Positions 30,637 through 56,019 of a stretch of DNA of 57,588 nucleotides are shown piece by piece. Numbering within the stretch: position 1 is the stretch's first letter; each line of letters starts with the position of its first letter. The stretch comes from Umezawaea endophytica (GTDB lineage Bacteria > Actinomycetota > Actinomycetes > Mycobacteriales > Pseudonocardiaceae). The position numbers and the translations under genes are program-made. Under the pieces are notes generated by a model. It ran no database searches, was not told the DNA's origin, and saw only the letters and a program-made list of their open reading frames with translations. Location of the stretch: positions 839,102 through 896,689 of the forward strand of contig NZ_JANYMP010000001.1 of the NCBI RefSeq assembly GCF_025061645.1, in the 5' to 3' direction.

Positions 30637-30702
30637 GCTCGACCACCACGGCCGAAGCGCCCGCGAACCGCTGATCGACCAACCGCGAACAGGAGAACCA
30701 CC

Positions 30703-32322: not shown

Positions 32323-32342
32323 TTCCACCGGAGGAGGAGATG

Positions 32343-33374: not shown

Positions 33375-33388
33375 AACGGAGAAGCACC

Positions 33389-33751: not shown

Positions 33752-33788
33752 CCTCGCGACGAGGGGTCGATCCCGACGACCCGTTCGT

Positions 33789-33803
33789 GTTACCTTAGGT
33801 AAC
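33789..33803. promoter_or_regulatory. Palindromic operator GTTACCTTAGGTAAC upstream of aurF-like gene
   Basis: 15-base near-perfect palindrome; a further GTAACC follows at once (33805-33810), giving a series of GGTAAC/GTTACC half-sites 43 bases before the ATG. Typical of a repressor site; the regulator gene is not adjacent. Confidence 0.6.
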
Positions 33804-33845
33804 TGTAACCATGGGTAGCACATAACTCGTCATCAGGGAGGCCTC

Positions 33846-34763: not shown

Positions 34764-34766
34764 CCC

Positions 34767-36257: not shown

Positions 36258-36269
36258 CGGGCCCGCGTG

Positions 36270-36360
36270 TCGGCAGGGTCCGCTGGTCGGCCAGGCCGGC
36301 TCGGCAGGGTCCGCTCAGCCGGTGCGCGCTCAGCCGGTGCGCACCAGCGCCCGGCCGGGC
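36270..36360. repeat. Short tandem repeats after the reductase gene
   Basis: TCGGCAGGGTCCGCT occurs at 36270-36284 and 36301-36315. GCTCAGCCGGTGCGC is exactly duplicated in tandem at 36313-36327 and 36328-36342. The palindrome GCCCGGCCGGGC follows at 36349-36360 and may serve as a terminator. The 36258-36411 gap otherwise shows no gene. Confidence 0.7.
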
Positions 36361-36411
36361 TCGCGCGTCGTGCGCACCGGTGCCCGGCCGGATCTGCGGG
36401 ATACTGGACGG

Positions 36412-36483
36412 ATGCCCCTCCCGTTGCCGATCGCGTTGCCGACCTCCCCTGCCCCGACGTGCGCCGACGTGCGCCCGTGGTGA
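36412..36483 (+). CDS. Candidate 23-aa leader ORF upstream of the GDSL lipoprotein
   Basis: ATG at 36412, six bases after a -10-like GATACT (36400-36405), so leaderless. The peptide is Pro-rich (MPLPLPIALPTSPAPTCADV, ending RPW) and its TGA (36481-36483) overlaps the GTG at 36480 of the lipoprotein gene. This would couple translation of the two. Not recognised as a known peptide. Confidence 0.45.
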   Translation: MPLPLPIALPTSPAPTCADVRPW

Positions 36484-41987: not shown

Positions 41988-42031
41988 CGCGCCTCCCGGC
42001 CTTGGGTCTGGTGCTCGCGCACCACGCCCGG

Positions 42032-42056
42032 TTACCCGGTCCGGACGAGTTGACAC
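42032..42056 (-). promoter_or_regulatory. Promoter-like element GTGTC / GGGTAACCGG (desaturase side)
   Basis: Minus strand: GTGT at 42056-42053, 15 bases, then GGGTAA at 42037-42032, 45 bases before the GTG at 41987. Same two motifs as on the plus strand at 42087-42112. Confidence 0.5.
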
Positions 42057-42086
42057 GTGACTCACGCCGTCCATCGAGACCGCCAG

Positions 42087-42112
42087 GTGTCGGAATGCGC
42101 GACGCGGGGTAA
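42087..42112 (+). promoter_or_regulatory. Promoter-like element GTGTC / GGGTAACCGG (esterase side)
   Basis: GTGT at 42087-42090, 16 bases, then GGGTAA at 42107-42112, 35 bases before the ATG at 42148. The -10 is GGGTAA and not GGGTAC/T, so it may belong to another alternative sigma factor. Confidence 0.5.
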
Positions 42113-42147
42113 CCGGCCTGCACAGCGTGCGACGAACGGAGCGGCCG

Positions 42148-42930
42148 ATGCGGATCCCACACCTGGTCAGCGAGCGGGCGGTGGACACGATCAGGGTCGC
42201 CTCCCGCGAACACGTCCTCGCCGCCGTGCTCGGCATCCCCCGCCTCCTGCGCCACCGCGCGTGGACCGACGTCGACCCGGAGCAGGGGCAGGGCCTCGGG
42301 GTGCTGCTCGTGCCGGGTTTCGGCGCGCACGACCAGTCGCTGGCGCTCACCACCGCGTGGCTCAAGGCCCGCGGGTACCGCCCGACCGGCGCCCGCGTCG
42401 GGTTCACCGTCGGGTGCACCACGGACCTGGTCGACCGGGTCGAGCGCGTGCTCGAACGGCACGTCGCGGCGACCGGCGGTCCCGTGGTGCTCCTGGGCCA
42501 GAGCCGCGGCGGCATGGTGGCCCGCCTGACGGCCGTCCGCAGGCCCGACCTGGTGCGCGGCCTGGTGATGATGGGCAGCCCCGTCGTGGAGCCACTCAGC
42601 GCCCAGCGGGACGTGCTCGCCATCGCCCGGCTGCTGACCCGGCTGTCGGCGATGGGCGTGCCGGGGCTGATGAACGGCGACTGCCTCACCGGTGACTGCT
42701 TCACCGAGAACTTCACCGCGCTCGGCCGTCCGCTGGAGGTGCCCGCGCTGTCGCTCTACTCGCGCTCGGACGGCATCGTGCCGTGGCAGTGCAGCCAGGA
42801 CCCGCACGCGGACTGCGTGGAGGTGCGGAGCACCCACACCGGCATGGGCTTCGACCCGGACGTCTACACCGCCCTGGACCAGCGGCTCCGGCAGTGGAAC
42901 CCGACGGCCGCCCTCGCGCGGGCGTGCTGA
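42148..42930 (+). CDS. Alpha/beta hydrolase (lipase/esterase-like)
   Basis: 260 aa from the ATG at 42148 (a GTG at 42127 is possible). Nucleophile elbow GQSRGGMVAR, N-terminal LLVPGFGAHDQSL (oxyanion region) and a catalytic Asp/His near the C-terminus (SRSDGIVP; STHTGMGF). Three Cys in NGDCLTGDCF. No signal peptide. Divergent from the desaturase-like gene. Confidence 0.88.
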   Translation: MRIPHLVSERAVDTIRVASREHVLAAVLGIPRLLRHRAWTDVDPEQGQGLGVLLVPGFGAHDQSLALTTAWLKARGYRPTGARVGFTVGCTTDLVDRVERVLERHVAATGGPVVLLGQSRGGMVARLTAVRRPDLVRGLVMMGSPVVEPLSAQRDVLAIARLLTRLSAMGVPGLMNGDCLTGDCFTENFTALGRPLEVPALSLYSRSDGIVPWQCSQDPHADCVEVRSTHTGMGFDPDVYTALDQRLRQWNPTAALARAC

Positions 42931-43042
42931 GCACGGCACTCCACAATCGAAGGGGGTTTCCGCTGGTCAGCGATTTCAAACCTCTTGAGGCCATGATTTT
43001 CCCAGGCTGGCCTGACGGCTCCGCACACGCCAGAATCAGGGG

Positions 43043-43393
43043 ATGACCCTCTCCAACGACGCGGTGAAGTCCACCGCGGACGACGGCACGACCGTCCTGC
43101 GCATCGCGGGCGAAGTCGACATGTCCAACAGCGACTCGCTCCGCAAGCAGTTCGTCGACGCGCTCGACGGCGGTGCCAGAACGCTCGTGCTCGACCTGTC
43201 CGAGGTGACGTTCTTCGCGTCGTCCGGCATCGCCGCGCTGGCCCACGCCCGCGAGTACGGCAAGCAGAGCGGGGACCGGCCGGTCCACGTGGTGGCCAGC
43301 CGGAGCGTCCGCCGGTCGTTGGAGGCGACGGCGATGGACCGGCTGCTGCCGCTGCACGCCACGCTGGACGAGGCGCTCGCCGCGGCCAGGTAG
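43043..43393 (+). CDS. STAS-domain anti-sigma-factor antagonist
   Basis: 116 aa, SpoIIAA/RsbV-like: TVLRIAGEVDMSNSDSLRKQF, LVLDLSEVTFFASSGIAALAHA. The phosphorylatable Ser is kept in FFASSG (Asp of the usual DSSG is Ala). It would bind an RsbW-type kinase and free a sigma factor. First member of the partner-switching island; no kinase gene adjoins it. No clear Shine-Dalgarno sequence; ATG shortly after GAATCA. Confidence 0.92.
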   Translation: MTLSNDAVKSTADDGTTVLRIAGEVDMSNSDSLRKQFVDALDGGARTLVLDLSEVTFFASSGIAALAHAREYGKQSGDRPVHVVASRSVRRSLEATAMDRLLPLHATLDEALAAAR

Positions 43394-43422
43394 GCCCGGC
43401 CGTCCCGTTCGAGGAGCCCGCA

Positions 43423-43452
43423 CGTCGCCCACGACCCCGGTCGGGGGCGACG
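43423..43452. terminator. Hairpin terminator after the STAS gene
   Basis: CGTCGCCC (43423-43430) pairs with GGGCGACG (43445-43452); an inner CGACC/GGTCG stem lengthens the hairpin. Confidence 0.65.
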
Positions 43453-43465
43453 GCACCCGCCTTCA

Positions 43466-43478
43466 GTCCACTGTGGAC
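43466..43478. repeat. Intergenic palindrome GTCCACTGTGGAC (second identical copy)
   Basis: Same 13-mer as at 18160-18172, here 145 bases before the glycosyltransferase start. The gap 43394-43622 shows the terminator and this element and no gene. Confidence 0.6.
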
Positions 43479-43622
43479 ATACGCGTCCCTTGTCGGCCAG
43501 TGCCGGAAACGGATACCGTCGACCACCAGGCACGGCACTCACAGGGCGTTCCGCCCGTCGGGCGACGGGTGCGCACCCCATCTCCCACCGCGGAAGGCCG
43601 CGGCGGGAGACCGGTGGTGGGG

Positions 43623-44786
43623 ATGCGGATCGCGATGGGGGCGGCCTCGTGGGAGGTCGACACCGACGAGCGCCGCACGCACATCTCCGAGCTGTCCCAC
43701 GGCCTGGCCCGCGGCGGCCACCACGTCACCCTCTACACCCGGCGCGACTCGCCCGGCCCCTTCCGCCGCGGCCCCCAACGGCTGGTCCGCGTGCCCGCCG
43801 GTCCCGCGGCGAGGCTGACCGAGGCGGACCTGCTGCCCCACCTCGACGAGTTCGCCGCCAACCTGGACAAGCACTGGGGCGGTCACCCACCGGACGTCGC
43901 GCACCTGCACTCGTGGACGTCCGGGCTGGCCGTGCGGGCGCTCGACATCCCGGTGGTGCAGTCGTTCCACGGTCTCCGCGCCACCCGGCAGCGCCCCTCC
44001 GCCGGTGTGCGCGGGCTGGTGGAGATCGAACGCCTCGTCGGGTTGGCCGCCGACCACGTGATCACCGCCAACGACGAGGAGCGGACCGCGCTGGCGTTCC
44101 TCGGCATCCCCCGCGAGCGGATGACGCTCGCGACGACGGGCGTGGACACCGACCACTTCCGTCCAGGGGGCGCCACCTGGACGAGGAGGCCGGGGCACCG
44201 GCTGCTGGGCCTCGGCGACGTGGAGCCGCACAGCGGCTTCTACACCACGATCGGCGCGCTCCCCCGCGTCCCGGACGCGGAACTCCTGATCACCGGCCGG
44301 ATCCGGCACGCCGTGCCGCGCGACAGCCCCGAGGTGACCAGGCTGCTGCGGCACGCGCGCGACCTCGGGGTCGCCGATCGCGTGCGCTTCACCGGTCCCG
44401 TCGGCCGCGCGGACCTGCCCGCGCTGCTGCGCTCGGCGGACGTGGTGGTGCGCGTGCCGTCCCACGACCCGCTCGGCACGCCCGCGCTGCGGGTCATGGC
44501 GTGCGGGGTCCCCGTGGTCGCGTCCGCCGTCGGAGCGCTGCGGGACCTCGTCGTGGACACCACGACCGGTCTGCTGGTGCCACCGCGCGTCCCCACCGTG
44601 CTGGGGCGCGCGCTGCGGGACCTGCTCGCCGAACCGGTGCGGCGGAACACCTTCGCGGTCGCGAGCACGGACCGGGCGCGCTCGGCCTACTCCTGGGCGC
44701 GGGTGGTCGCCACCACCGTGGACGCCTACCGGAAGGCGATCTCGGCGGGCTCGCGCCGACGGGGGACCAGGTCCGACACCAGGTGA
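43623..44786 (+). CDS. Family 4 glycosyltransferase
   Basis: 387 aa from the ATG at 43623; the longer frame to 43473 crosses the palindrome. GT-B fold: MRIAMGAASWEVDTDERRTHISELSHGLARGGHHVTLYTRR, PPDVAHLHSW, the nucleotide-sugar domain (FTGPVGRADLPALLRSADVVVRVPSHDPLGTPALRVMACGVPVVAS). Sugar and acceptor unknown. Converges on the STAS gene with 13 bases between stops. Confidence 0.9.
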   Translation: MRIAMGAASWEVDTDERRTHISELSHGLARGGHHVTLYTRRDSPGPFRRGPQRLVRVPAGPAARLTEADLLPHLDEFAANLDKHWGGHPPDVAHLHSWTSGLAVRALDIPVVQSFHGLRATRQRPSAGVRGLVEIERLVGLAADHVITANDEERTALAFLGIPRERMTLATTGVDTDHFRPGGATWTRRPGHRLLGLGDVEPHSGFYTTIGALPRVPDAELLITGRIRHAVPRDSPEVTRLLRHARDLGVADRVRFTGPVGRADLPALLRSADVVVRVPSHDPLGTPALRVMACGVPVVASAVGALRDLVVDTTTGLLVPPRVPTVLGRALRDLLAEPVRRNTFAVASTDRARSAYSWARVVATTVDAYRKAISAGSRRRGTRSDTR

Positions 44787-44799
44787 TCCCGACCGGGCC

Positions 44800-45192
44800 T
44801 CAGCCCGCGGCGCGGGCGGACAGCGCCAGTTCCAGCGCCCGCAGCGCGGCGTCCGTGTCCGGGTAGACGCGGACGACGGTGTCGACCTTCGTCACCCGCA
44901 GCGGTCGGAGCACGCACGCGCGCCCGGAGGCCACCGCGAACCCGACCCCCGCGCGGGTGGTCCGCTCGACCGTGTCGATCAGGATGGCGAGACCGCCGGA
45001 CCCGAAGTAGTCGGTCTCGGTCAGGTCCAGCACGAGCGCGGTCGGCCGGTACTCCAGGAGGGTGCGCAGGGTCTCCCCGACCGACGTGGACGTCGTCATG
45101 TCCACCTCGCCCGCGACGCAGACGACCGAGATCTCGCCGTGCATCGTGAAGTCGACGGTGATCTGCTCCTCCGGCGACCGGAACTCCCCCAC
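44800..45192 (-). CDS. STAS-domain anti-sigma-factor antagonist
   Basis: 130 aa from the GTG at 45192 with AGGAGA 8 bases upstream; the frame to 45357 has no support. STAS motifs SVVCVAGEVDMTTSTSVGE and LVLDLTETDYFGSGGLAIL. The phospho-Ser position is kept but the Asp before it and the second Ser are Gly. Downstream of the PP2C gene by 196 bases; that gap shows no gene and no obvious promoter. Confidence 0.9.
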   Translation of the reverse strand: MGEFRSPEEQITVDFTMHGEISVVCVAGEVDMTTSTSVGETLRTLLEYRPTALVLDLTETDYFGSGGLAILIDTVERTTRAGVGFAVASGRACVLRPLRVTKVDTVVRVYPDTDAALRALELALSARAAG

Positions 45193-45388
45193 TGCGCGCT
45201 CTCCTCGACTCGACCGACCAGGCCGGAACCCGCACGGCCCGTGCTGGAGACGCGGAACTGGCCGCGTCACCACCGTACTCACCCGCCGTTCCCGGATGCA
45301 ATCGGTTCGACCTCGGCGTTCGGGGGATCCCTTGTGCAGCAGCGTGTGCACCCGCACGACCGCTCCGCCCGGCGCGCTCGCCCCCCGG

Positions 45389-46849
45389 TCACAGCGCCGC
45401 GTCGTCCGGCCTCGCCCACCGGGCGAGCAGCACCGTCGCGTCGTCGCGCAACTCCCCCTTCCGGTGGCGGACCACGGCGCGGACCAGTCGGCGGACCGCC
45501 TCGGGTGGTGACCTGCCCGCCTCCGCCTCGCGTTCGAGCAGGTCGACCAGCCGCGCCTCCCCGAACCACTCGCCGCGGTCGTCGCGGGCCTCCGTGACGC
45601 CGTCGGTGTGCAGCACCACCCAGTCGCCGGGCCGCAGGACGTCCTCGGCGACCGCGAACGAGCCGGGTCGCTGCCCGAACGGCACCCGGTGGCCGCCGAT
45701 GAGGCTCCTGATCACCTTGCCGGACCTCAACAGCAGCGGCTCCGGGTGACCCGCGTTCAGGTAGCGCAACCGGCCGGACGTCACGTCCAGCTCGGCCAGC
45801 ACCCCGGTGGCCGCCGCGCCTCCGGGGAACCGGTCCGCGATGGCGCGGTCGACGGCCGCCGCCTGCTCCACCAGCGACTCGCCGACGTGCCGGGCGCCCC
45901 GGTACCCGGCCAGCGCCGCCGCGGCGACGAACCCGTCCGCCGTGGTGCCGCCCGCCGCGTCGAAGATCGCCAGTGCCCCCGTGGTCTCGGACAGCGCGTA
46001 GTCGAACGCGTCGCCGCCCCCGTCGGACCCGGTCTCCACCAGGCCGGACAGCACGAACGACCCGACACCCGCGGTCGACGGGGGCAGCAGGCCCCGCACC
46101 AGTCCCGCCGCCGCGGAACTCGGCCCGTCCCGCCGAACGGCGTCCAGCCCGTCGCCGTACCTCGCCATCGCGGCCACCAGGTAGCCGATCAGGGCGGCGA
46201 TCCACCGGCACTGCGCCCGCAGCGTCCGGTCGTCCGCGTCCGCCGGGTCGGACGGCGTGAACCCGACGACCCCCAGCCGCTCGACGCCGTCGAGCAGCGG
46301 CAGCCACAGCGTCCGCTTCCCGCGCTTCTCCGACGACGCGGTCCGCACCGACCGGAACACCATGCCCGGCACCGTCGTGTCCACCCCGAGCGGCTGCCGG
46401 TACCCGCCACCGGGCCCCGGCAGCGGCACCAGGAACCGCTGCCCGTGGTCGACCAGGTAGACCTCGACCCCCAGTCCCGCGGCGCGGCACGCGACCTCCA
46501 CGACGGCGGGCAGCCGTTCGGGTGGCGCGAGGTACGCGCCGTCGAGCAGGCCCACCAGCGCGGCCAGCGGACCGCTGCTCGGCCCCGTGTCGTCGTCGGG
46601 GTGGTTGTAGGGCACCCGGTGCGGCCACGTCAGCTCGTCCAGCCGCTCGTTGACCGCGTGGGCGAGCACGTCGCACTGGTCGGCGGGCAACGGCATCATC
46701 CCGTGCAGGTACGCCTCCACCTCGGTCAGGCCGACCTCACCGCCGAGGGAGAAGTACCTGATCCAGAGCTGTTCGAGCGTCAGGTCGGCCCGGCGGAGCG
46801 ATGCCGTGAGCGCACGGCGCTGCGCCTCCAGCCTGCTGTCCGCGTCCAC
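45389..46849 (-). CDS. PP2C-family (SpoIIE-like) phosphatase with N-terminal sensor region
   Basis: 486 aa, GTG start at 46849. N-terminal ~80 aa helical, then a GAF-like region (~90-230; VEVYLVDHGQRFLVPLPGPG), then a PP2C/SpoIIE domain: GGDAFDYALS, AIFDAAGGTTADG, YLNAGHPEPLLLR, VVLHTDGVTEARDDR, DDATVLLARWA. It should dephosphorylate STAS antagonists. Second gene of a GAF-ANTAR - PP2C - (STAS) run, 3 bases after the ANTAR gene. Confidence 0.92.
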   Translation of the reverse strand: MDADSRLEAQRRALTASLRRADLTLEQLWIRYFSLGGEVGLTEVEAYLHGMMPLPADQCDVLAHAVNERLDELTWPHRVPYNHPDDDTGPSSGPLAALVGLLDGAYLAPPERLPAVVEVACRAAGLGVEVYLVDHGQRFLVPLPGPGGGYRQPLGVDTTVPGMVFRSVRTASSEKRGKRTLWLPLLDGVERLGVVGFTPSDPADADDRTLRAQCRWIAALIGYLVAAMARYGDGLDAVRRDGPSSAAAGLVRGLLPPSTAGVGSFVLSGLVETGSDGGGDAFDYALSETTGALAIFDAAGGTTADGFVAAAALAGYRGARHVGESLVEQAAAVDRAIADRFPGGAAATGVLAELDVTSGRLRYLNAGHPEPLLLRSGKVIRSLIGGHRVPFGQRPGSFAVAEDVLRPGDWVVLHTDGVTEARDDRGEWFGEARLVDLLEREAEAGRSPPEAVRRLVRAVVRHRKGELRDDATVLLARWARPDDAAL

Positions 46850-46852
46850 GGG

Positions 46853-47575
46853 TCAGCGCCCCGCCTCCGAGGTGGTGCGCAACAGGGACTGCGCCACGTC
46901 GTGCAGCGTCTTGCGCTGGCGCCGGGCCAGGTCGGCCAGCGCGGCGAACGCGGTGTTCTCGTCCGATCCGTGACGGGCCATCAGCACACCCTTGGCCATG
47001 GCGATCTGGTCGCGGCTGCGGAACGCCCGCCGCAGCTCGTCCCCGACGCGCTGCGCCGCCTCCACCGTGCGCACGTTGGCGACCAGCACGGCGGCCTGCG
47101 CGGCGAAGAGCGTCAGCAGGTGCTCCTCGCGCTCCCCGTAGGCGTTCGGCGGAGCCGCGTACACCTTGAGGGCGCCCAACGCGTCGTCCTCGGTCACCAG
47201 CGGCGCGCTCAGCGAAGCCCTCATGCCCAGCGGCCGGGCGGCACGGGTCCACCGCGGCCAGCGCCGGTCGTGGTCCAGGTCGTCGACGCGCACCAGCGTC
47301 CGGGTCTCCCACGCCGTCAAGCACGGGCCCTCGTCCAGCTCGTACTGGAGGGCGTCCGCGCGCAGCACCACCGCGTCGGTCGCCGACGTGCTGGTCCGGT
47401 GCCCCTTCGGGTCGACCAGCGACACGCCCGCCCCGATGGTGCCGGGGATGGCGCCCTTCGCCAGGGACGTCACGAGTCCCAGCACGGTGCCCAGCGTCTC
47501 GTGCGACAGCAGCAATCCCCACATCCGCGCTGTCACGGCCGCCAGTTCATCCGCCAAAGGCAGGTCGTCGTTCAC
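46853..47575 (-). CDS. GAF-ANTAR domain RNA-binding antiterminator
   Basis: About 240 aa; start GTG at 47575 with a GGGGG site, or GTG at 47584. GAF domain (~30-170: GLVTSLAKGAIPGTIGAGVSLVD; ALQYELDEGPCLTAWETRTLVRVDDL), then ANTAR (~175-235: LRRAFRSRDQIAMAKGVLMARHGSDENTAFAALADLARRQ). ANTAR proteins bind paired RNA hairpins and prevent termination when the GAF domain senses a signal. Signal unknown. Co-transcribed with the PP2C gene. A GGGTAA lies about 60 bases upstream but lacks a well-placed -35. Confidence 0.92.
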   Translation of the reverse strand: MNDDLPLADELAAVTARMWGLLLSHETLGTVLGLVTSLAKGAIPGTIGAGVSLVDPKGHRTSTSATDAVVLRADALQYELDEGPCLTAWETRTLVRVDDLDHDRRWPRWTRAARPLGMRASLSAPLVTEDDALGALKVYAAPPNAYGEREEHLLTLFAAQAAVLVANVRTVEAAQRVGDELRRAFRSRDQIAMAKGVLMARHGSDENTAFAALADLARRQRKTLHDVAQSLLRTTSEAGR

Positions 47576-47659
47576 CGGGACCACCCCCCGCTGTCCGCTC
47601 CTCCACAGGTCGCGCGTTCCGGAAGTTACCCGCGCGGAGGGCGCGCTGCCAGACTCCTT

Positions 47660-47977
47660 CTAGATGACCTTCTGGGGCGAGAGCAGGAGGGTGCCGAGCC
47701 CCGTCACCTTCAGCACCCGAGCCAGGAACGGCGGCACCGGGTCGAGGACCACGGTGTGGCCGTGCGCCACCCCCGCCTTGTACGCCGCGACGAACGCGCT
47801 GAGCCCGCTGGAGTCGACGAACGTCACCCCGGCGAGGTCGAGCACCACGTCGGCTTCGGCCGCGGCGGCGAGGAGCACCCCCTCGAACTCCCCCGAGGTG
47901 GTGATGGTGACCGCGCCGACCGGTACGACGACCACTCGTCGCGCTTCGCGTTCGACGGTCCAGGACAACTCGTTCAC
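47660..47977 (-). CDS. STAS-domain anti-sigma-factor antagonist
   Basis: 105 aa from the GTG at 47977, which overlaps the previous stop (GTGA). Canonical VLDLAGVTFVDSSGLSAFVAAYKAG with an intact DSSG phospho-site. Last gene of the PP2C - cobalamin-protein - STAS operon; the coupling implies they work as one signalling module. Confidence 0.93.
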   Translation of the reverse strand: MNELSWTVEREARRVVVVPVGAVTITTSGEFEGVLLAAAAEADVVLDLAGVTFVDSSGLSAFVAAYKAGVAHGHTVVLDPVPPFLARVLKVTGLGTLLLSPQKVI

Positions 47978-49017
47978 GATGCGGTTTCCCCTTGCAGGAC
48001 AAGGCCGTCGGCCCAGTGGCGGACGACGAGCCCGTGCGCCGTCGGGAAGTCCCGCAGCGTCGAGGCGAGCACGTCGCCGAGTTCGGCCGCCAGCCGGGGG
48101 TCCGCGCCCCTCGCGGTCAGCAGCCGGTCGATCCACGCCGCCGTCTCCGGGATCGGCCGCGGGTCGCCGGTGAGCAGCGTGGCCGACACGGCGTGCAGGG
48201 CCTGGTGGAGCACTTCCCCGCAGGCGGCGGAGAACAGCTTGCGCGCCAAGGGGTCGTCCGGGGCCGCGCGGGCCGCGGGCGACCACCGTCCTCTGAGGAC
48301 CTCCACCAGCCGGTGGTGGCCCAGTTCGATGGCGGACTGCTCCGCCAGGGGTTCCCTCGGCAGCGGCGCGGCCCGGCGCACCACGGCGGGCAGTTCGTCC
48401 AGCAGCGCCACCGCGCCCTGCGCGTTCGGCGCCCACGCCGTCGCGCCGAGCGCCAGCGCGCGGGTGGGGTCCGAGCCGAACGCCGAACCGCCGACCACGA
48501 CGGGGATGCCCGCCGTGGTGCTCGCCTCGATGAACCGGCGGGTCGTGGGCAGCGCGCCGAGCACCGAGCAGCTCACCGCGGTCGCGTCCGGGCCGACGTC
48601 GTGCAGGCACTGGCTGAGCCGGGCGGGTGACGTGCTCGCGCCCAGCAGTGTGGTGTCCCAGCCGTGCAGGCGCATCGCGGAGCTGATGATCAGCGCGGGC
48701 AGCGCGTGCCACTCCCGTTCCGCGCAGGCGACCACGACCCGGCCACGGGTGACCGGGGTGCGTTCGGCGAAGCGCGCGACCACCTCCGTCGCCGAAACCG
48801 CGACGGCCGTGGCGGCGTGCTCCTTGGCGATCGACCACTCGCCGCGCTGCCACCGCTCGCCCACCGTCCGCTGGCCCGCGGCGATGACGTCGACCAGCAC
48901 CGCGAGCGGGTCCTCGCCCGCGTCCAGCAGCTCCCGCACCAACGACGTCGCGGCACGTCCGTCCACGGCGGACAGTGCCCGGTCGAACTCGGCGACGGCC
49001 CGGTCCACCCCGATCAC
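47974..49017 (-). CDS. Cobalamin-binding photoreceptor-like regulator
   Basis: 347 aa from the GTG at 49017 (overlaps the PP2C stop, GTGA). Residues ~1-90 form a helical cap domain with W56-x9-E66-H67 (in RWQRGEWSIAKEH), the signature of adenosylcobalamin light sensors such as CarH. Residues ~92-205 are the B12 Rossmann fold: the axial-ligand motif reads EREWHALP (His103; the usual Gly is Pro), with VSCSVLG and VVVGGSAFG. There is no DNA-binding domain; instead ~140 aa of helical C-terminus with no recognised family. Coupled to PP2C and STAS genes, so output is probably by protein contact. Confidence 0.88.
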   Translation of the reverse strand: MIGVDRAVAEFDRALSAVDGRAATSLVRELLDAGEDPLAVLVDVIAAGQRTVGERWQRGEWSIAKEHAATAVAVSATEVVARFAERTPVTRGRVVVACAEREWHALPALIISSAMRLHGWDTTLLGASTSPARLSQCLHDVGPDATAVSCSVLGALPTTRRFIEASTTAGIPVVVGGSAFGSDPTRALALGATAWAPNAQGAVALLDELPAVVRRAAPLPREPLAEQSAIELGHHRLVEVLRGRWSPAARAAPDDPLARKLFSAACGEVLHQALHAVSATLLTGDPRPIPETAAWIDRLLTARGADPRLAAELGDVLASTLRDFPTAHGLVVRHWADGLVLQGETAS

Positions 49018-50321
49018 CTCTCGCAGGACACCGCGAGCAGGGCGATGTCGTCGTGGGCCCGGCCGTCGAGGTACTCGACGACGCTCCGCTCCACGGCCTC
49101 GCACAGCGCCACCGGACCCGCGCCCGCGTAGTCGGGCAGCAGGCCGAGCAGCCGGTCCATGCCGTAGAAGCCGTCCGACCCCCTGGCCTCGTCGACGCCG
49201 TCGGTGAACATCAGCATCGTGTCGCCCGCCTCGATGCGGACCCGCACCTCGGTGTAGGAGGCGCCCGGCACCACGCCCGCGACGATGCCCGCCACCTCGA
49301 CCTGCTCCACCTCGCCGTCCGCGTGCACCACGATCGGGGCCGGGTGGCCGGCCACGGCGATGTCGACCTCGGCGGAACTCCCGTCCGGGGACGGGTGGAA
49401 CCGCGCGCACACGACCGTCACGAAGCGCGAGGAGTCGTTCTCGCACAGGACGTCGTTCAACGCCTTGAGCACCGCGGACGGCCTGCGGTCGAAGTACGCG
49501 GCCATCCGGATGCCCTGCCGGGCCCGACCGGTCAGCACGGCCGCCTCGACACCCTTGCCGCACACGTCGCCCAGCACCAGCAGCCAGTCGTCCGCCGCGC
49601 CGTGGACGTCGTAGAAGTCGCCGCCGATGTCGAGGTGCTCCGCCGCGGGCCGGAACCGGGCCGAGACGCGCGCGCCGGGGATGGCGGGCAGGTCCGGCGG
49701 GCGCAGGCTGGCCTGGAGGATCGAGGCGACCCGGCCGCGCTCCTGGTAGAGCCTGGCCGAGTCGAGGGCGATCGACGCCTGGCTCGCGATCTGGCCCGCG
49801 AACTCGACGTCGTCGTCCGGGAAGCCGCGACCGGCGCCGCGGATCATCACGAGCGTGCCGATCGTGCTGCCCCGTGCCGTCAGCGCCAGGCTGAGCACGT
49901 CGGCGGGCCGCAGCTCGACGGCCTCCTCCCGCAACCGCGGGTGCGGGATCATCGTGTCCAGGCCCTCGGTGCTGTCCAGCTCCACCGAGACGTGCAGCAG
50001 CTCGTCCTGGCCGGAGCGCAGCACGCGCTCCACGCCGGTGCCCTCGATCAGCGCTCGGGGGATGCTGGTGGCGAAGGTGGGGTCGGCGCCGCCGTGCAGC
50101 GTGAGGCCGCTGGTGTCGTCCACCAGGACGACCATCGCCCAGTCCGCCACTCGGGGGGTGAGGAGGTCGAGCAGCCGGAGCACCGTGCGCCGCAGGTTGA
50201 GGGAACCGGTCAGCGCGGAGGTGACCTCGCCCAGGAGGTCGACGCGCAACCGCGCTTCGGCCAGCAGTTCGTGCTCGGTCGCGGACCCGGCACGCACCGC
50301 CTTCGCCTCGCTCGTGGTCAT
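49014..50321 (-). CDS. GAF-PP2C (SpoIIE-like) phosphatase
   Basis: 435 aa; ATG at 50321 (AAGAGGG site), rather than 50393. An N-terminal helix is followed by a GAF domain (~30-190: ELLAEARLRVDLLGEVTSALTGSLNLRRTVLRLLDL; FAGQIASQASIALDSARLYQERGRVASILQASLRP) and PP2C (200-430: HLDIGGDFYDVHG, LVLGDVCGKGVEAA, VAGHPAPIVVH, LMFTDGVDEARG, DDIALLAVS). The Asp residues for Mn/Mg are present. It should dephosphorylate STAS proteins. First gene of the three-gene light/cobalamin-type operon. Confidence 0.94.
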   Translation of the reverse strand: MTTSEAKAVRAGSATEHELLAEARLRVDLLGEVTSALTGSLNLRRTVLRLLDLLTPRVADWAMVVLVDDTSGLTLHGGADPTFATSIPRALIEGTGVERVLRSGQDELLHVSVELDSTEGLDTMIPHPRLREEAVELRPADVLSLALTARGSTIGTLVMIRGAGRGFPDDDVEFAGQIASQASIALDSARLYQERGRVASILQASLRPPDLPAIPGARVSARFRPAAEHLDIGGDFYDVHGAADDWLLVLGDVCGKGVEAAVLTGRARQGIRMAAYFDRRPSAVLKALNDVLCENDSSRFVTVVCARFHPSPDGSSAEVDIAVAGHPAPIVVHADGEVEQVEVAGIVAGVVPGASYTEVRVRIEAGDTMLMFTDGVDEARGSDGFYGMDRLLGLLPDYAGAGPVALCEAVERSVVEYLDGRAHDDIALLAVSCER

Positions 50322-50463
50322 GACGCCCTCTTCCCGATCACCGACAGACGGTCCTGAGCCTACCGAACGACTTCCCGGCCCGAAGGTCGCCACGCACGGG
50401 CGGTGCTGCTCAGCGGTACGTCGGTAGACGTGAAATCATCTCGATCAAGTCGTCCGGAACGAG

Positions 50464-53139
50464 GTGGGACAGCGCGTGGCTGGTGTCGACGGGCAATACG
50501 CGACGGGTGGGCGGACGCCTGACCTCATCGCGTTCGTCGAGGGTGACGGGAGGCTGTCGCGCCTGGACGACGCGGGTCGCGAGCTGCTCGGCCTGGCGCC
50601 CGACGCGGACGCCACCGGGCTGCGGCTGGCCGACCTGGTGCTCGGCGGCGGGAGCGCCGCGGAGCGCGTCCTGGCCACCGCCTCGCGCGACCGGGTCTGG
50701 GCCGGTGACCTCGCCCTCGGCGTGCACGGCCGGACCGTCGACGTGTTCCTGGTCTGCGCGGCGCAGGACAGCGGGTTCGCGGTCGTCGCGCGCACCGCGT
50801 CCGCGACGGCCTTCACCGCCGACCTCGAACTCGGGATGCAGGCGCTGGAGGACCCCGAGGCCGTGATGGCGCTGGCGACCCGCGCGCTCGGCACCCACCT
50901 GGGCGTGGACCGCTGCGCGTACGCGCGGACCGAGCCGGACGAGGACCACTTCGTCATGAGCGGCGACCACGCCACCGGTCTGCCCAGCCTGGTCGGCCGG
51001 TTCGCGATGTCGCAGTTCGGCTCGGGCTGCCTGCGGGCGATGCGGGCGGGCGAGCCGTGGGTGGTGCACGACAGCGCGGACGACGACCGCCTGCTGCCCG
51101 AGGACCTGGCGGTCTACCGGGCGACCGGGATCCGCGCGGTGGTCTGCCTTCCGCTGCACAAGTCCGGCCGGTTCGTCGCCGCCATGGCGGTCCACCACGC
51201 GACCGCCCGCCGGTGGACGCGGGCGGAGATCGACTTGGTGGTCGTGGTCGGCAACCGCTGCTGGGAGTCGATGCAGCGGACCCACGCGAGCCGGGCGCTG
51301 CGCGAGAGCGAGGAGCACTACCGGCTGCTGGTGGAACTCGCCACCGACGCCATCTGGATGGTCGACCGCGACCTGCGGTTCGTCGACGCGAACGCGGCGG
51401 CGTGCGAGCTGCTCGGCTACCGGCGCGAAGACCTGCTCGGCATGGCCGTGACCGACCTCGTCGTCGCCGAGAACGAGGACCGGCTCGCCGACCTGGTCGC
51501 GGACCGGCCGACCCCGCAGGTCGTGACCGAGGTGTGGGACGTGCGCCGCGCCGACGGCACCGTGCTGTCGGTGGAGCTGAGCGTCCAGAGCACGCCCGGA
51601 GGGCTCCAGGCGATCAGCCGGGACGTCACCGCCCGGCGCCGCGCCGAGGTCGAGCAGGACGAGCTGCTCCAGCGGGAACGCGAGATCGCCCAGGCGATGC
51701 AGCAGAGCCTGCTGCCCCGTGAACTGCCCGAACTGGCGCGGCTGGCGGCCTCGGCCCGGTACCTGCCCGCGTCGACGCACGCCCAGACCGGCGGCGACTG
51801 GTACGAGGTGCTGCCGCTCGGTGACAACGTCGTCGCGCTGTCCGTGGGCGACGTCGTCGGCAAGGGCCCGACCGCCGCCGCCGTGATGGGGCAGCTCCGC
51901 AGCGCGCTCGCGGGGTACCTGCTCGAAGGCCACTCCCCCGGCGCCGCGCTGGAACGGCTGGACAGGTTCGCCGACCGGATCAAGGGTGCCGCGGGCAGCA
52001 CCTGCGCGTGCCTCACCTTCAACCACGACACCGGCGAGCTGCGCTGGACCGCGGCGGGCCACCCGCCGCCGCTGGTCGTGGAGTCGGAGACCTCGCGGTT
52101 CCTGTCGGACAGCGGTGGCGCGGTGCTGGGCGTGCCGGACCGCGGGCGCTACGCCGAGCACCGGACGGTCCTGGAGCCGGGAACGTCGATCGTGCTGTAC
52201 ACCGACGGGCTGGTGGAACGACGGGGCAGCCTGATCGACGAGGGCCTGGACAGGCTGCTGCGAACGGCGTCCGAGGCGCGCGACCTGCCGCCCGAGGACC
52301 TCGCGAACGCCATCACCGGGGCCCTGCTGGCCGATGGGCACGACGACGACGTGGCGCTGGTCGTCGTCCGGCACGTCCCCGCGCCGCTGCGCGAGAGCCT
52401 GCCCGCCGAACCGGGGGAACTCAGCGGGATGCGCCGCAGGGTGGGTCTCTGGGGCAGCGCGGCCGGGCTCTCGGCGGACCTGCTGGACGACCTGCAACTC
52501 GCGCTCGGGGAAGCGGCGGCGAACTCCGTCGACCACGCCTACCCGGACGGGTCCGGCGACTTCGACTACGAGGTGGCCCGCGACGACCGAGGCGGCGTCC
52601 ACGTCGTCGTCCGCGACCACGGCCGGTGGCGGCCGGTACCGCCGGACAACGGCCACCGCGGCCGGGGGCTGCGGATCATCCGGGCCCTGTCCGAGAGCTC
52701 CTCGTTCGACCACGGCGCGCACGGCACCACGATCGACTTCGTGCTCGTCGAACCGACAGCCCCTCCTCGGCGGCGGAAGACCGACCACGTGGAGACGCCC
52801 ACCGGGCTGACCGTCGACGACACCGGAGAGTCGGTCCAGGTCATCCGGATCACCGGCGACCTGGACCTCACCACCTCCGACGGCCTGCGAGCCGCGGTGC
52901 TGGACCGGGTCGCCGCCGCCGCCCAGCCGCGCACCGACGTCGACCTGACCGGGCTGAACCACCTGAGCAGTTCGGGGATCGCGCTGCTGCTGGAAGCCGC
53001 GAGCGCGACCGCCCGTGCGGGCAGGTCCCTGTCCGTGCTGGCCGAGGAGGGGTCCGCGCCCGCCCGGATCCTGGAGCTGTCCGGGCTGAGCGGCGTCTCC
53101 ACCGGCCGGAACCTGGTGGTGCGGACCATTTCGCGCTAG
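50464..53139 (+). CDS. Multi-domain PAS-GAF-PAS-PP2C-HATPase-STAS regulator
   Basis: 891 aa (a GTG at 50476 is an alternative start). In order: PAS-like (~15-110), GAF (~120-275: MALATRALGTHLGVDRCAYART), PAS (~280-395: YRLLVELATDAIWMVDRDLRFVDAN), PP2C (~410-635: GGDWYEVLPLGDNVVALSVGDVVGKG; VLYTDGLVERRG; DDDVALVVVRH), RsbW-like HATPase (~650-770: GEAAANSVDHAYPDG; RGRGLRIIRALSE) and a C-terminal STAS domain (VDLTGLNHLSSSGIALLLEA). Thus phosphatase, kinase-like and antagonist parts sit in one chain. Divergent from the PP2C-cobalamin operon. Confidence 0.94.
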   Translation: MGQRVAGVDGQYATGGRTPDLIAFVEGDGRLSRLDDAGRELLGLAPDADATGLRLADLVLGGGSAAERVLATASRDRVWAGDLALGVHGRTVDVFLVCAAQDSGFAVVARTASATAFTADLELGMQALEDPEAVMALATRALGTHLGVDRCAYARTEPDEDHFVMSGDHATGLPSLVGRFAMSQFGSGCLRAMRAGEPWVVHDSADDDRLLPEDLAVYRATGIRAVVCLPLHKSGRFVAAMAVHHATARRWTRAEIDLVVVVGNRCWESMQRTHASRALRESEEHYRLLVELATDAIWMVDRDLRFVDANAAACELLGYRREDLLGMAVTDLVVAENEDRLADLVADRPTPQVVTEVWDVRRADGTVLSVELSVQSTPGGLQAISRDVTARRRAEVEQDELLQREREIAQAMQQSLLPRELPELARLAASARYLPASTHAQTGGDWYEVLPLGDNVVALSVGDVVGKGPTAAAVMGQLRSALAGYLLEGHSPGAALERLDRFADRIKGAAGSTCACLTFNHDTGELRWTAAGHPPPLVVESETSRFLSDSGGAVLGVPDRGRYAEHRTVLEPGTSIVLYTDGLVERRGSLIDEGLDRLLRTASEARDLPPEDLANAITGALLADGHDDDVALVVVRHVPAPLRESLPAEPGELSGMRRRVGLWGSAAGLSADLLDDLQLALGEAAANSVDHAYPDGSGDFDYEVARDDRGGVHVVVRDHGRWRPVPPDNGHRGRGLRIIRALSESSSFDHGAHGTTIDFVLVEPTAPPRRRKTDHVETPTGLTVDDTGESVQVIRITGDLDLTTSDGLRAAVLDRVAAAAQPRTDVDLTGLNHLSSSGIALLLEAASATARAGRSLSVLAEEGSAPARILELSGLSGVSTGRNLVVRTISR

Positions 53140-53288
53140 AAGATGACGACCAGCAGCAGGACGACCGCGAGCACGATGGCCAGCACCATCCAGTGGAACC
53201 CCGGCTTCCTGCGGTGGTGCGCCTGCACGGTGGTGGTGCGGAACCAACTGCCAGGCAGACGGCGGCGGTGTCGGTCAACCCAAGGCAT
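53136..53288 (-). CDS. Small tail-anchored membrane protein (50 aa)
   Basis: ATG at 53288 with GGGAGCGG just upstream. A basic N-terminal half (MPWVDRHRRRLPGSWFRTTT) and a C-terminal single hydrophobic helix (MVLAIVLAVVLLLVVIF) ending at the stop. Stop codons of this gene and the convergent multi-domain gene share CTAG (53136-53139). Function unknown. Confidence 0.65.
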   Translation of the reverse strand: MPWVDRHRRRLPGSWFRTTTVQAHHRRKPGFHWMVLAIVLAVVLLLVVIF

Positions 53289-53336
53289 GTCCGCTCCCTA
53301 CATCCCAAGTGCCCCTTCGGCACGCTCGTAGCGGGG

Positions 53337-53384
53337 CTACCCCGGAACAGGCGTGAGGACACCTCGGATTCGAAGAATTTTCAT
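53337..53384 (-). CDS. Candidate leader peptide with strong ribosome site
   Basis: ATG at 53384 behind AGAGGAGGAG (8-base spacing) encodes MKILRIRGVLTPVPG and stops 49 bases before the small membrane protein start. A hairpin (GTGCC/GGCAC) lies between them. Its ATG overlaps the stop of the 96-codon frame upstream (ATGA). Confidence 0.4.
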   Translation of the reverse strand: MKILRIRGVLTPVPG

Positions 53385-53671
53385 CCGCTGGCTCCTCCTC
53401 TGTGGAGCGTCGTGCCGGAACTTCGGGGACCCGCACCCGTTCGAACGGACCGGGTGCCGGTCGGAACCGGCGCGAGGGCGGTCACCTCGACGGCGCGGCC
53501 GGATCCGTCGAGGTCGAGGTGTTCGAGTCGCCGGGCCGGGAAGACCGCCACCAGGCCGACCCGTGCGACCGGGCTCGGGGACGTGGTGCACGCCCCCGAG
53601 CCCGGCGTGAGCGGATCGGGTGGAGCGCTTCCGGGTTGTCCGTCCTCAAAGGACTTGCCGCGGGTCGACAT
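53381..53671 (-). CDS. Uncertain 96-aa ORF in the gap between hsp20 and the small membrane protein
   Basis: The 53289-53696 gap holds this frame. Its 3' end overlaps the leader ATG (ATGA), and parts look protein-like (VARVGLVAVFPARRLEHLDLDG), but it has no family match that I recognise, codon bias is weaker than in neighbours and competing frames exist on both strands. Confidence 0.25.
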   Translation of the reverse strand: MSTRGKSFEDGQPGSAPPDPLTPGSGACTTSPSPVARVGLVAVFPARRLEHLDLDGSGRAVEVTALAPVPTGTRSVRTGAGPRSSGTTLHRGGASG

Positions 53672-53696
53672 CCCCTGCGCGGCGAGGACTCCCCCG

Positions 53697-54140
53697 TCAG
53701 GCGTCGATCTGCTTGACCTCTTGGGCGCCGCCGGTGTTCGTGATCGAGATCTTGCGCGGCTTCGCCTTCTCCAGCACCGGGATCCGCAGGGTCAGGACAC
53801 CCGCGTCGTAGTCGGCGGTGATGCCCTCGGTGTCGAGGGTGTCGCCGAGGAACAACTGGCGGGAGTACACGCCCAGCGGCCGTTCGGCGACCTGCATCTC
53901 CACGTCCCGCTTGTCCGCCCTCGGACGCCGTTCGGCCTTCACGGTCAGCACGTTCCGCTCGACGTCCAACTCGATCGCGTCCGCCGACACGCCCGGCAGG
54001 TCGAACGCCACCACGAACTCGTCGCCCGACCGGTAGGCGTCCATCGGCATCGCCGTGGGCCGCGACCACGTGCCCTGGCCCCCGAACACCTGCTGCGTCA
54101 GCCGGTCCAGTTCCCGGAACGGGTCAGTGCGCATCAACAT
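53697..54140 (-). CDS. Hsp20/alpha-crystallin small heat-shock protein
   Basis: 147 aa; AGGAGGTG before the ATG at 54140 (ATG 54134 possible). Alpha-crystallin domain: [39 protein letters not shown] ... [20 protein letters not shown] (the C-terminal I-x-I-type KISITN). ATP-independent holdase preventing protein aggregation. Divergent from its probable repressor; operator-like repeats lie between -35 and -10. Confidence 0.95.
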
Positions 54141-54185
54141 CCGGCACCTCCTCGTGAGTCTTCGTCTCCGTCAACGCGCACCACT

Positions 54186-54214
54186 GTTGTAACATGTCGT
54201 CCAAGTGATGACAA
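54186..54214 (-). promoter_or_regulatory. hsp20 promoter with embedded operator
   Basis: Minus strand: -35 TTGTCA (54214-54209), 17-base spacer, -10 TACAAC (54191-54186). The inverted repeat TGTCGTC-N5-GATGACA (54195-54213) lies between and over these boxes, placing a repressor in the core promoter. Confidence 0.7.
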
Positions 54215-54239
54215 GCCCTCTGTCGTCGAAAGGATGACA
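54195..54239. promoter_or_regulatory. Two operator copies TGTCGTC-N5-GATGACA
   Basis: Copies at 54195-54213 and 54221-54239, 26 bp apart, each an inverted repeat with one mismatch between its arms. The first covers the hsp20 core promoter; the second covers the ribosome site (AAAGGATG) and approaches the ATG of the divergent regulator gene. Confidence 0.8.
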
Positions 54240-54240
54240 A

Positions 54241-54813
54241 ATGCCGATCGGTGACTACGAGACCCTGCGGGCCGCCGCCACCGCCTCCGACCGCCTGGAG
54301 GCGGCGCAGGTGCTGGCGGCGCTGGAACTCCTCCGCGAACTGCGCGCCGAACTCGCGGACTGGGAGCCCCGGCTGATCGCCGCGGCCCGTGATGGAGGAG
54401 CGAGCTGGGCCGACCTCGCTCCCGCGCTCGGCGTGGCCAGCCGCCAAGCCGCCGAGCGCCGCTTCCTCCGGCTGCGCACGTCCGAGGTCGGCGGGTCGAC
54501 CGGCGAGCAGCGCGTGAAGGCCGAACGCGACCGTCGTGCCGGCGACCGCGCCGTGTCCCGTTGGGCCCGCGACAACTCCGCGGTGCTGCGCGGCCTGGCG
54601 GGCCAGATCGGCGACCTCGACCCGTCCGTGCACCGCGCGCTGGGCGAGGACGACGCCGCCGCGCTGCTCAGCCCGCTCGCCGGGGCGCACGACCACCTGA
54701 GCGCGACGCACCCCGACCTGGCGGCCCGCATCGGCGTGATCGGCGAGCACACGGACCGCGTCCGCCGCGACACCCAGTCGCGGCGGGACGAGCCCGACCC
54801 CGGCGGGCACTGA
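54241..54813 (+). CDS. HSP18-type transcriptional regulator
   Basis: 190 aa. The N-terminal part has a helix-turn-helix-like segment (ASWADLAPALGVASRQAAERRFLRL); the rest is helical and charged. Same family as actinobacterial proteins annotated as HSP18 regulators next to hsp20 genes. Likely represses hsp20 and itself through the paired repeats. Its stop lies 9 bases from that of the convergent ArsR gene. Confidence 0.88.
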   Translation: MPIGDYETLRAAATASDRLEAAQVLAALELLRELRAELADWEPRLIAAARDGGASWADLAPALGVASRQAAERRFLRLRTSEVGGSTGEQRVKAERDRRAGDRAVSRWARDNSAVLRGLAGQIGDLDPSVHRALGEDDAAALLSPLAGAHDHLSATHPDLAARIGVIGEHTDRVRRDTQSRRDEPDPGGH

Positions 54814-54822
54814 CCGGGCCGG

Positions 54823-55173
54823 TTACCCGAACAGAGCGCCCAGGGAGGACCAGCCCTCGGGCACGCTGCGGTAGTACGCCCACGTGCCGCGGCGTTCGCG
54901 GGTCAGCAGGCCCGCGTCGGTGAGCACCTTGAGGTGGTGGCTCACGGTCGGCTGGGTCAGGCCCAGCGGTTCGACGAGGTCGCACACGCAGACCTCGCCC
55001 TCCGGCGCGGAGTGGATGATGCTGAGCAGCCGCAGGCGCGCCGGGTCCGCGACGGCCTTGAGCAGCTTCGCCAGCCGCTCCGCCTCCTGGCGGTCCAGCG
55101 GCTCCCCCGCCTGGCTGAGCCGCGCGCGGTCGGCGCCCGCCGCCGGGAGCCTGGCCGCGCTCGTCGCACTCAC
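54823..55173 (-). CDS. ArsR-family metal-responsive repressor
   Basis: 116 aa from the GTG at 55173, seven bases after TATCCT, so probably leaderless. Winged helix: AVADPARLRLLSIIHSAPEGEVCVCDLVEPLGLTQPTVSHHLKVLTDAGLLTRERRGTWAYYR, with the EVCVCD alpha-3 metal/metalloid site. No transporter or reductase gene is next to it; the divergent neighbour is a HAD hydrolase. Confidence 0.92.
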   Translation of the reverse strand: MSATSAARLPAAGADRARLSQAGEPLDRQEAERLAKLLKAVADPARLRLLSIIHSAPEGEVCVCDLVEPLGLTQPTVSHHLKVLTDAGLLTRERRGTWAYYRSVPEGWSSLGALFG

Positions 55174-55251
55174 GACCGCCAGGATACGCAAGATCACCGA
55201 CCGCCACCGGACCCCCGTACTGTCGGGGTGAGGACGACGTGGGGGGACGCG

Positions 55252-56019
55252 ATGGTGAGCAGGCCGTTGGCGCTGCTGCTGGACTTCGGTGGTGTCGTGG
55301 TGACCTCGCGGCGCAGGCCGGAGTGGGCGAAGGAACTGGCGGGCGAGATACACGGCCGGTTCGCGCGCCTCGGTTTCGACGAGCCGGACGAGGACCGGAT
55401 CCGGCAGGACGTGGAGTACGGGCAGGCCGCCGCCCGGCGGTGGCGGGACGCGGTGTCGCGGACGCCCGAACCGCTCGAACTGGCGCACCGGCGGTTCTGG
55501 GCCGACTTCGTCGCGGCCGACTGGCCCGCGCCCGCCCGCGCCTGGGTCGACGCCGAGGCGACGGCGCTGTGCGGGCGCCTCGGCGAGCTGGGCCAGGAGC
55601 GGACGTTCAGGCCCGGTCTGCACGACCTGCTGGACACCGCCGACGGGCTGGGCGTGCCCGTCGGCATCGTCAGCAACGCGCTGTCCGGCGCCGTGCACCG
55701 CGACCACCTGCGGCACCACGGGCTGGACGGCCGCTTCGCCGTGCAGGTCTACAGCGACGAGCTGGGCATCCGCAAACCGCACCCCGGCATGATCACCGCC
55801 GCCGCGGCCGCGCTCGGCGTGCCGGTCGGGTCGACCTGGTACGTCGGCGACAACTACGACCGCGACGCGCTGTGCGCCCGGCGGGCCGGGGCCGGCGCGG
55901 CGATCCTCGTGGAGGACGCGGGCACGCACGAGCCGCCGTTCATGCCGTTCCTGGAGGTCGACGCCCTGCTGCCGGACCTGCACGCCCTCCGCTCGCTGCT
56001 GGCGGACGCGCCCCGGTAG
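55252..56019 (+). CDS. HAD-superfamily hydrolase
   Basis: 255 aa from the ATG at 55252 (GGGGGGA upstream). Motif I is LLLDFGGVVV (Asp nucleophile; the second Asp is replaced by Gly: DFGG), motif II IVSNALSG, motif III/IV RKPHPGMI and VGDNYDRD. The DFGGV variant is common in HAD-IA proteins and still allows catalysis in some relatives. Substrate unknown; probably a small phosphate or haloacid-type compound. Confidence 0.9.
   Translation: MVSRPLALLLDFGGVVVTSRRRPEWAKELAGEIHGRFARLGFDEPDEDRIRQDVEYGQAAARRWRDAVSRTPEPLELAHRRFWADFVAADWPAPARAWVDAEATALCGRLGELGQERTFRPGLHDLLDTADGLGVPVGIVSNALSGAVHRDHLRHHGLDGRFAVQVYSDELGIRKPHPGMITAAAAALGVPVGSTWYVGDNYDRDALCARRAGAGAAILVEDAGTHEPPFMPFLEVDALLPDLHALRSLLADAPR

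Follow-up and report, generated by a model that had tools for sequence, protein, structure and literature searches.

We analysed a 57,588-nucleotide window of the Umezawaea endophytica genome (Pseudonocardiaceae; assembly GCF_025061645.1, contig NZ_JANYMP010000001.1, positions 839,102 to 896,689; coordinates below are those of the window). Its minus strand carries a three-gene operon for a phosphatase, a B12-binding protein and a STAS protein. The first gene (49014..50321) encodes a 435-amino acid GAF-PP2C phosphatase of the SpoIIE/RsbU type (Pfam GAF_2, residues 42-187, E-value 3.4e-10; Pfam SpoIIE, residues 244-432, 1.9e-43). The second gene (47974..49017) encodes a 347-amino acid protein with Pfam B12-binding_2 and B12-binding matches. 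The third gene (47660..47977) encodes a 105-amino acid STAS anti-anti-sigma protein with a DSSG motif (Pfam STAS_2, 6.4e-17; NCBIfam ant_ant_sig 48.5 bits, under the cut-off of 53.45). Stop and start codons overlap in the sequence GTGA at both joints (49014..49017 and 47974..47977). A first-pass annotation had described these three overlapping genes as a CarH-like cobalamin sensor, devoid of a DNA-binding domain, between GAF-PP2C and STAS neighbours. The gene arrangement and both neighbours were recovered as described, and no DNA-binding domain was present among the Pfam matches of the B12 protein (E-values up to 0.1).

The phosphatase is closest, among solved structures, to Rv1364c (3ke6, 6.1e-18). 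Its GGDFYD, GDVCGKG, TDG and HDD blocks, which we take to be the PP2C metal sites, are nearly or fully invariant among 76 phosphatases encoded next to related B12 proteins. Ser56 of the STAS protein is presumably the phosphoacceptor, by analogy with SpoIIAA and RsbV. The motif serine is present in 51 of 52 STAS proteins from related three-gene loci, with threonine in the remaining one. At the sequence level, the window genes thus supply two elements of a PP2C/STAS partner switch, a PP2C with its predicted active-site residues and a phosphorylatable STAS protein.

Several comparisons identify the product of the second gene as a standalone photocobilin. Like other members of this family, it combines a CarH-like B12 domain (cap and Rossmann parts, approximately residues 10-195) and a bilin-type globin-like domain (approximately residues 215-347) in one protein. 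The closest solved structures are SasPcob (8j2w/8j2x; phmmer 1.6e-45 to 8j2w over residues 11-327) and AbPcob (8j2y, 1.3e-35), with CarH (5c8a, 6.1e-5) far behind. A profile of 19 sequences from its own clade (clade 1, defined below) matched 8j2w at 5.9e-72. In a comparison by predicted structure, as proposed in the first-pass annotation, photocobilin chains occupied Foldseek ranks 1-5, with 8j2w first, but the globin part of the query model was poor. This AlphaFold2 model was built from two sequences and had a mean predicted local distance difference test score (pLDDT) of 59.9, with most of the globin below 50. Because the globin itself was modelled poorly, the photocobilin assignment rests on sequence. 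The protein scored 40.2 bits against the NCBIfam CarH model (cut-off 400) and has no Pfam match to the MerR DNA-binding domain of CarH. Since phmmer, profile and Foldseek searches all return photocobilins, the C-terminal region of about 140 residues, previously regarded as novel, corresponds to the biliverdin-binding globin of SasPcob. We accordingly rejected both the label of novelty for this region and the description of the protein as a CarH-like sensor.

To place this protein among its relatives, we surveyed 297 genomes of the same family and identified 136 matches at 1e-10 in 117 genomes, the window included. Of the 135 other places, 80 were taken: all 33 full-length matches of at least 260 bits and 47 of the remaining 102, which were hand-picked rather than random. 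Adding the window and a Mycolicibacterium sediminis locus (L120, the only one contributed by a related-locus search) gave a family set of 82 loci. A class-level survey of 394 genomes identified 64 with a match at 1e-20, and 40 of the 68 places that were new, none of the 40 from the window's family, formed a class set. The photocobilin tree comprised 83 rows (SasPcob and AbPcob added, the fragment L116 left out) and carried long-branch warnings for AbPcob and L106. Within it, 35 rows including the window protein split off at 100/99. We refer to these as clade 1 and to the other 47 family loci as clade 2; six class-set proteins belong to clade 1 by score. Locus L084, in genome G223, holds the exact SasPcob stretch of 8j2w, and we thus take G223 to be Saccharothrix syringae.

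The association with PP2C genes is broadly conserved. We counted a PP2C gene as directly upstream if it lay on the same strand with at most 250 bases between the matched stretches, and a STAS gene as next downstream within 400 bases. PP2C genes lie directly upstream in 76 of 82 family loci (33/35 in clade 1, 43/47 in clade 2). STAS genes lie next downstream in 52 of 82 (19/35 and 33/47), always together with the PP2C gene, so that the full three-gene order that the first-pass annotation had suggested looking for is found at these 52 loci. In the class set, PP2C genes are upstream in 33 of 40 loci (6/6 in clade 1, 27/34 in clade 2) and STAS genes downstream in 16, none of them in clade 1. Since the 11.0-Mb genome of U. 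endophytica contains only 12 SpoIIE-domain matches, we estimate chance PP2C neighbours to be negligible. Stop and start codons could share an NTGA sequence (N = A, G or T) at 52 of the 76 PP2C joints (14/33 in clade 1, 38/43 in clade 2) and at 49 of the 52 STAS joints.

Ten clade-1 loci (L044-L049, L051, L052, L054 and L059) additionally contain same-strand STAS and HATPase matches upstream of the PP2C gene and are thus predicted to encode a complete partner-switch set. Some of them are ordered STAS-HATPase-PP2C-photocobilin-STAS. Overall, a model built up from the HATPase of the window gave same-strand HATPase matches within 3 kb in 10/35 clade-1 and 7/47 clade-2 loci. At L155, two tandem photocobilin genes follow one PP2C gene, and a tandem pair also occurs at G312:C52:63285-65403.

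Photocobilins and neighbouring phosphatases appear to have been inherited together. In a PP2C tree made by a quick method, with long-branch warnings for background PP2Cs, the PP2Cs beside clade-1 photocobilins form one clade (Shimodaira-Hasegawa approximate likelihood ratio test 98), and clade-2 PP2Cs lie elsewhere. The photocobilin clade of the window protein, itself distinct and well supported, is mirrored by a single clade of PP2C neighbours. Four family genomes carry both photocobilin clades, as do two class-set genomes (G299 and G585). The two PP2Cs within each of the four family genomes are only 38-43% identical to each other, but each shares 79-93% identity with a PP2C encoded next to a photocobilin of the matching clade. 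The N-terminal, GAF-containing half of the window PP2C is matched in 33/33 clade-1 PP2Cs and in 2/47 clade-2 loci (L099 and L105). Mirror-tree Spearman coefficients, uncorrected for species history, are 0.90 for clade 1 and 0.87 for clade 2 (L116 excluded).

The adenosylcobalamin (AdoCbl) pocket is conserved. The window protein has the photocobilin AdoCbl motif (W, EH, E/DxH) as W56, E66-H67 and E102-W103-H104. W56, E66 and H67 had been named correctly in the first-pass annotation, and the axial histidine, placed there at position 103 and 36 residues after H67, is H104, 37 residues after H67. The equivalent gap in SasPcob is 36 by the published numbering (PMC10979010). Equivalents of W, E, H and the axial H are invariant in all 35 clade-1 and 47 clade-2 family rows and in the 6 class-set clade-1 rows. 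The globin tryptophan W296 of SasPcob corresponds to W295 in the window protein and is kept in 35/35 clade-1 family rows, in 41/41 clade-1 rows once the class set is included, and in 46/47 clade-2 family rows, the other being gapped. A proline after the axial motif (WHALP in the window) had been considered a Gly-to-Pro oddity. It is present in 45/47 clade-2 and 23/35 clade-1 rows, including the window, and is therefore a family feature, and we rejected the idea of a CarH with an unusual axial motif.

The bilin site appears to differ between the clades. In the column of SasPcob Asp270, clade 1 has V in 19, C in 14 and A in 2 family rows, and T in 3, A in 2 and S in 1 class-set rows (Asp in 0/41). 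Clade 2 has Asp in 43/47 family and 26/34 class-set rows. The alignment of this position depends on the method. MAFFT and hhalign both pair window V269 with Asp270 without a gap, whereas HMMER against 8j2w introduces a gap of one residue, so that Asp270 is aligned with E268, the acidic residue just before V269. The same HMMER run pairs the V269 column with the AbPcob histidine without a gap. We prefer the ungapped alignment because clade 1 and clade 2 are equally rich in acidic residues at the preceding column; the AlphaFold2 model could not settle this position, given its low-scoring globin. SasPcob His137 is replaced by Arg in 33/35 family and 6/6 class-set clade-1 rows (R133 in the window), and this arginine could still hold a propionate. 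The glycine of the GxxH motif is Arg in 41/41 clade-1 rows; clade 2 has Gly in 46/47 family and 25/34 class-set rows, with Arg in 3/34 of the latter. On the preferred alignment, the clade-1 globin probably does not hold biliverdin in the manner of SasPcob.

Cofactor supply is less discriminating. In the U. endophytica genome, heme oxygenase is represented by one strong match (4.5e-53), cobalamin adenosyltransferase (Pfam accession PF01923) by two matches and the B12-binding domain by nine, six of them above the cut-off; a search of the same genome for PHY domains gave no match. With five weak matches set aside (G060, G203, G276, G278 and G281), heme oxygenase (Pfam accession PF01126) is present in 14/28 genomes with clade 1 only, in 62/88 with clade 2 (four of these with both clades), in 1/1 with a fragment only and in 83/180 without a photocobilin match. 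Presence with any photocobilin match (77/117) thus exceeds presence without one (odds ratio 2.25, p 0.001, uncorrected for kinship). The clade-1-only genomes without a PF01126 match are all 12 sampled clade-1 genomes of one genus, g24 (among them G195, with its photocobilin in two pieces), and G022 and G060 from the window's genus. The clades are therefore not cleanly distinguished by heme oxygenase. Its presence neither supports nor excludes bilin loss, because SasPcob, a biliverdin binder in vitro, comes from a genome (G223) that likewise lacks a PF01126 match.

The middle protein belongs to the photocobilin family, the AdoCbl and PP2C residues are intact, and the operon is conserved and co-inherited with its PP2C. 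The locus is best explained, and fairly likely so, by an AdoCbl photoreceptor, possibly independent of bilin, that controls the adjacent PP2C and thereby a STAS/anti-sigma partner switch. The middle gene product would bind AdoCbl as a dark-state dimer. Light would break the Co-C bond, the adenosyl group would leave, and the photocobilin would then assemble differently and alter how it contacts the GAF-PP2C phosphatase made alongside it. Activity of the phosphatase on phosphorylated STAS protein from the third gene would change in turn, and unphosphorylated STAS protein would bind an anti-sigma kinase so that a sigma factor is freed. AdoCbl binding, the light response, the PP2C as direct target, the sign of control and the sigma factor are the parts of this scheme that we infer.

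Published work provides precedents for several of these steps. SasPcob is a dimer in the dark and becomes a monomer with loss of adenosine (Zhang et al., 2024, PMC10979010). Activation of a separate cyclase has been reported for AbPcob in the light state and for holo SasPcob, and illumination raises the turnover of AbDPcob, a photocobilin fused to a diguanylate cyclase, more than 10-fold (PMC10979010). In RsbU-type phosphatases, switching occurs through a partner that brings order to the linker and the dimer (PMC12143880). Taken together, this work suggests that the photocobilin may regulate the GAF-PP2C in the way that RsbT regulates RsbU. Without biliverdin the effect of SasPcob is reversed, such that the dark state activates and light appears to inhibit (PMC10979010). 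Should clade 1 lack bilin, light could thus act in it with the opposite sign to that seen for holo SasPcob.

The first-pass proposal of a B12-dependent light sensor acting on a PP2C/STAS switch is partly supported, by conserved gene order and co-inheritance, with a photocobilin in place of the CarH-like protein. Its impression that such wiring had not been described needs qualification, as STAS, SpoIIE and PP2C proteins have been named as potential SasPcob partners from interaction networks (PMC10979010). The conservation of PP2C/STAS gene order, the co-inheritance with PP2C and the residue differences of clade 1 are added here. The sensor type itself is known, and the clade-1 subgroup and its regular pairing with the phosphatase seem to have been described only in part. 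A 2022 photoglobin paper by Schneider in Computational and Structural Biotechnology Journal (CSBJ) reportedly analysed gene neighbourhoods, and the PP2C association may already be there. We further offer, as a tentative and somewhat doubtful extension, that clade 1 is a bilin-free, AdoCbl-only subclass responsive to green light, with the globin, formerly a bilin antenna, repurposed as a docking or relay domain for a dedicated GAF-PP2C; it would then provide a B12-light input to sigma-factor partner switching in actinomycetes of at least two families.

Alternatively, the window protein could be a full two-chromophore photocobilin that binds AdoCbl and biliverdin and, like SasPcob, senses green and red light, with Glu268 or another residue acting as Asp270. 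This would be compatible with PP2C control, and the gapped HMMER pairing, the heme oxygenase of U. endophytica and the arginine at the His137 position all fit it. The ungapped pairings, the complete lack of Asp in that column of clade 1 and the acidic-rich preceding column argue against it, as does, weakly given the SasPcob genome, the lack of PF01126 in the 12 g24 genomes; we regard two chromophores as less likely than not. It is rather improbable that the protein senses AdoCbl or cobalamin status, with the PP2C switch reporting B12 supply and photolysis being incidental. Conservation of the pocket residues speaks, in itself, for AdoCbl binding, and the number of B12-binding-domain matches indicates that B12 status could matter in this organism. 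However, the Trp and Glu-His pocket is common to the experimentally tested photoreceptors CarH, SasPcob, AbDPcob and CtMerR (PMC10979010, PMC11796333), and the globin tryptophan kept throughout clade 1 contacts both chromophores in SasPcob. Very improbable, in our view, is a merely co-inherited block in which the photocobilin acts on a target other than the PP2C. Linked genes do co-diverge without contact, and the SasPcob gene and two extra photocobilin copies in the window's genus (L053 and L055) have no adjacent PP2C. This account sits poorly with PP2C adjacency across many genera and several families, with the frequent potential for overlapping joints and with the matched pairs of the two-clade genomes.

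Several observations weigh against control of the adjacent PP2C by an AdoCbl photoreceptor. STAS is not next downstream in 30/82 family loci, in 24/40 class-set loci or in any of the 6 class-set clade-1 loci. PP2C is missing from 6/82 family loci (L053, L055, L084, L100, L104 and L106; L053 and L055 also have no STAS neighbour) and from 7/40 class-set loci, including L146 and L160, where a PP2C lies just past 250 bases. Co-divergence partly reflects linkage and species history. No separate HATPase gene lies beside the window triad. Among the 34 class-set clade-2 rows, W is kept in 33, E in 34, H in 32 and the axial H in 32. A light-responsive cobalamin-binding domain signature of GxxW, EH, GxxH and GxxxP has been derived with SignatureFinder (PMC11796333). 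The window protein has the first two motifs (G53-W56 and E66-H67), but carries R101xxH104 in place of GxxH and, if the last motif is placed by our alignment with SasPcob, G126xxxS130 in place of GxxxP. Clade 1 may have escaped strict-motif searches because the published GxxH motif is missing there.

The proposed system shares parts with several known ones. SasPcob (Saccharothrix syringae, 8J2W/8J2X) resembles the window protein in being standalone and in its two-part architecture, four AdoCbl residues and W296. It belongs to the other clade, is approximately 35% identical, differs at Asp270 (V269 in the preferred alignment), His137 (R133) and Gly105 (R101), and its own gene has no adjacent PP2C. 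AbDPcob (8J2Y) shares the photocobilin module and lacks the bilin Asp, as the window protein does on the preferred alignment, but its output enzyme is fused, whereas the likely output in the window is the separate adjacent PP2C. AbPcob has His in place of this Asp and binds biliverdin weakly, yet is still classed as a photocobilin (PMC10979010). TtCarH has the same AdoCbl-pocket residues (W, EH and axial His); unlike CarH, the window protein has an extra globin, no DNA-binding domain and, in common with SasPcob, a Gln (Q57) at the bis-His position. RsbT-RsbU-RsbV and Rv1364c also feature a PP2C that acts on STAS, with the regulator encoded beside the PP2C. In the window, a B12 photocobilin would take the place of the kinase RsbT as regulator, and the triad has no anti-sigma kinase. 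YtvA and other LOV-STAS proteins likewise bring light into a partner switch, that of SigmaB, but these use a flavin chromophore and a sensor fused to STAS.

The surroundings of the triad contain further signalling genes. Divergent from it, 50464..53139 (plus strand) encodes an 891-amino acid GAF-PAS-PP2C-HATPase-STAS fusion (Pfam), predicted to be a whole partner switch in one protein. It holds the only HATPase of the anti-sigma-kinase type found in positions 41001-56000 and is a possible partner of the triad. The same-genus triad loci L040-L042 gave no HATPase match; at L040, an opposite-strand PP2C 3.4 kb downstream groups with the PP2C of this fusion. Downstream of the triad, three more same-strand signalling genes span 44800-47584 (minus strand): a GAF-ANTAR gene (46853..47584; Pfam ANTAR 3.1e-16, GAF_2 6.9e-17), which is next to the triad and a possible extension of the operon, another PP2C gene at 45389-46849 and another STAS gene at 44800-45357. 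Farther away, 37751-39832 (minus strand) encodes a long catalase approximately 8 kb from the signalling genes, perhaps indicating a stress-related neighbourhood. The region 32340-37385 (plus strand) looks biosynthetic, with genes for a nitronate monooxygenase, an AurF-type N-oxygenase, an iron-sulphur/pyridine-nucleotide oxidoreductase and a GDSL protein. A long frame at 28187-30682 (minus strand) has a C-terminal part resembling chalcone synthase (type III polyketide synthase).

The function of standalone photocobilins was called ‘less clear’ by the authors who described the family (PMC10979010). PP2C adjacency, matched co-inheritance and complete STAS-HATPase-PP2C-photocobilin-STAS loci offer a concrete, testable answer to this question. 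A clade with an intact AdoCbl site and an apparently altered bilin site moreover provides a natural experiment on the purpose of the globin.

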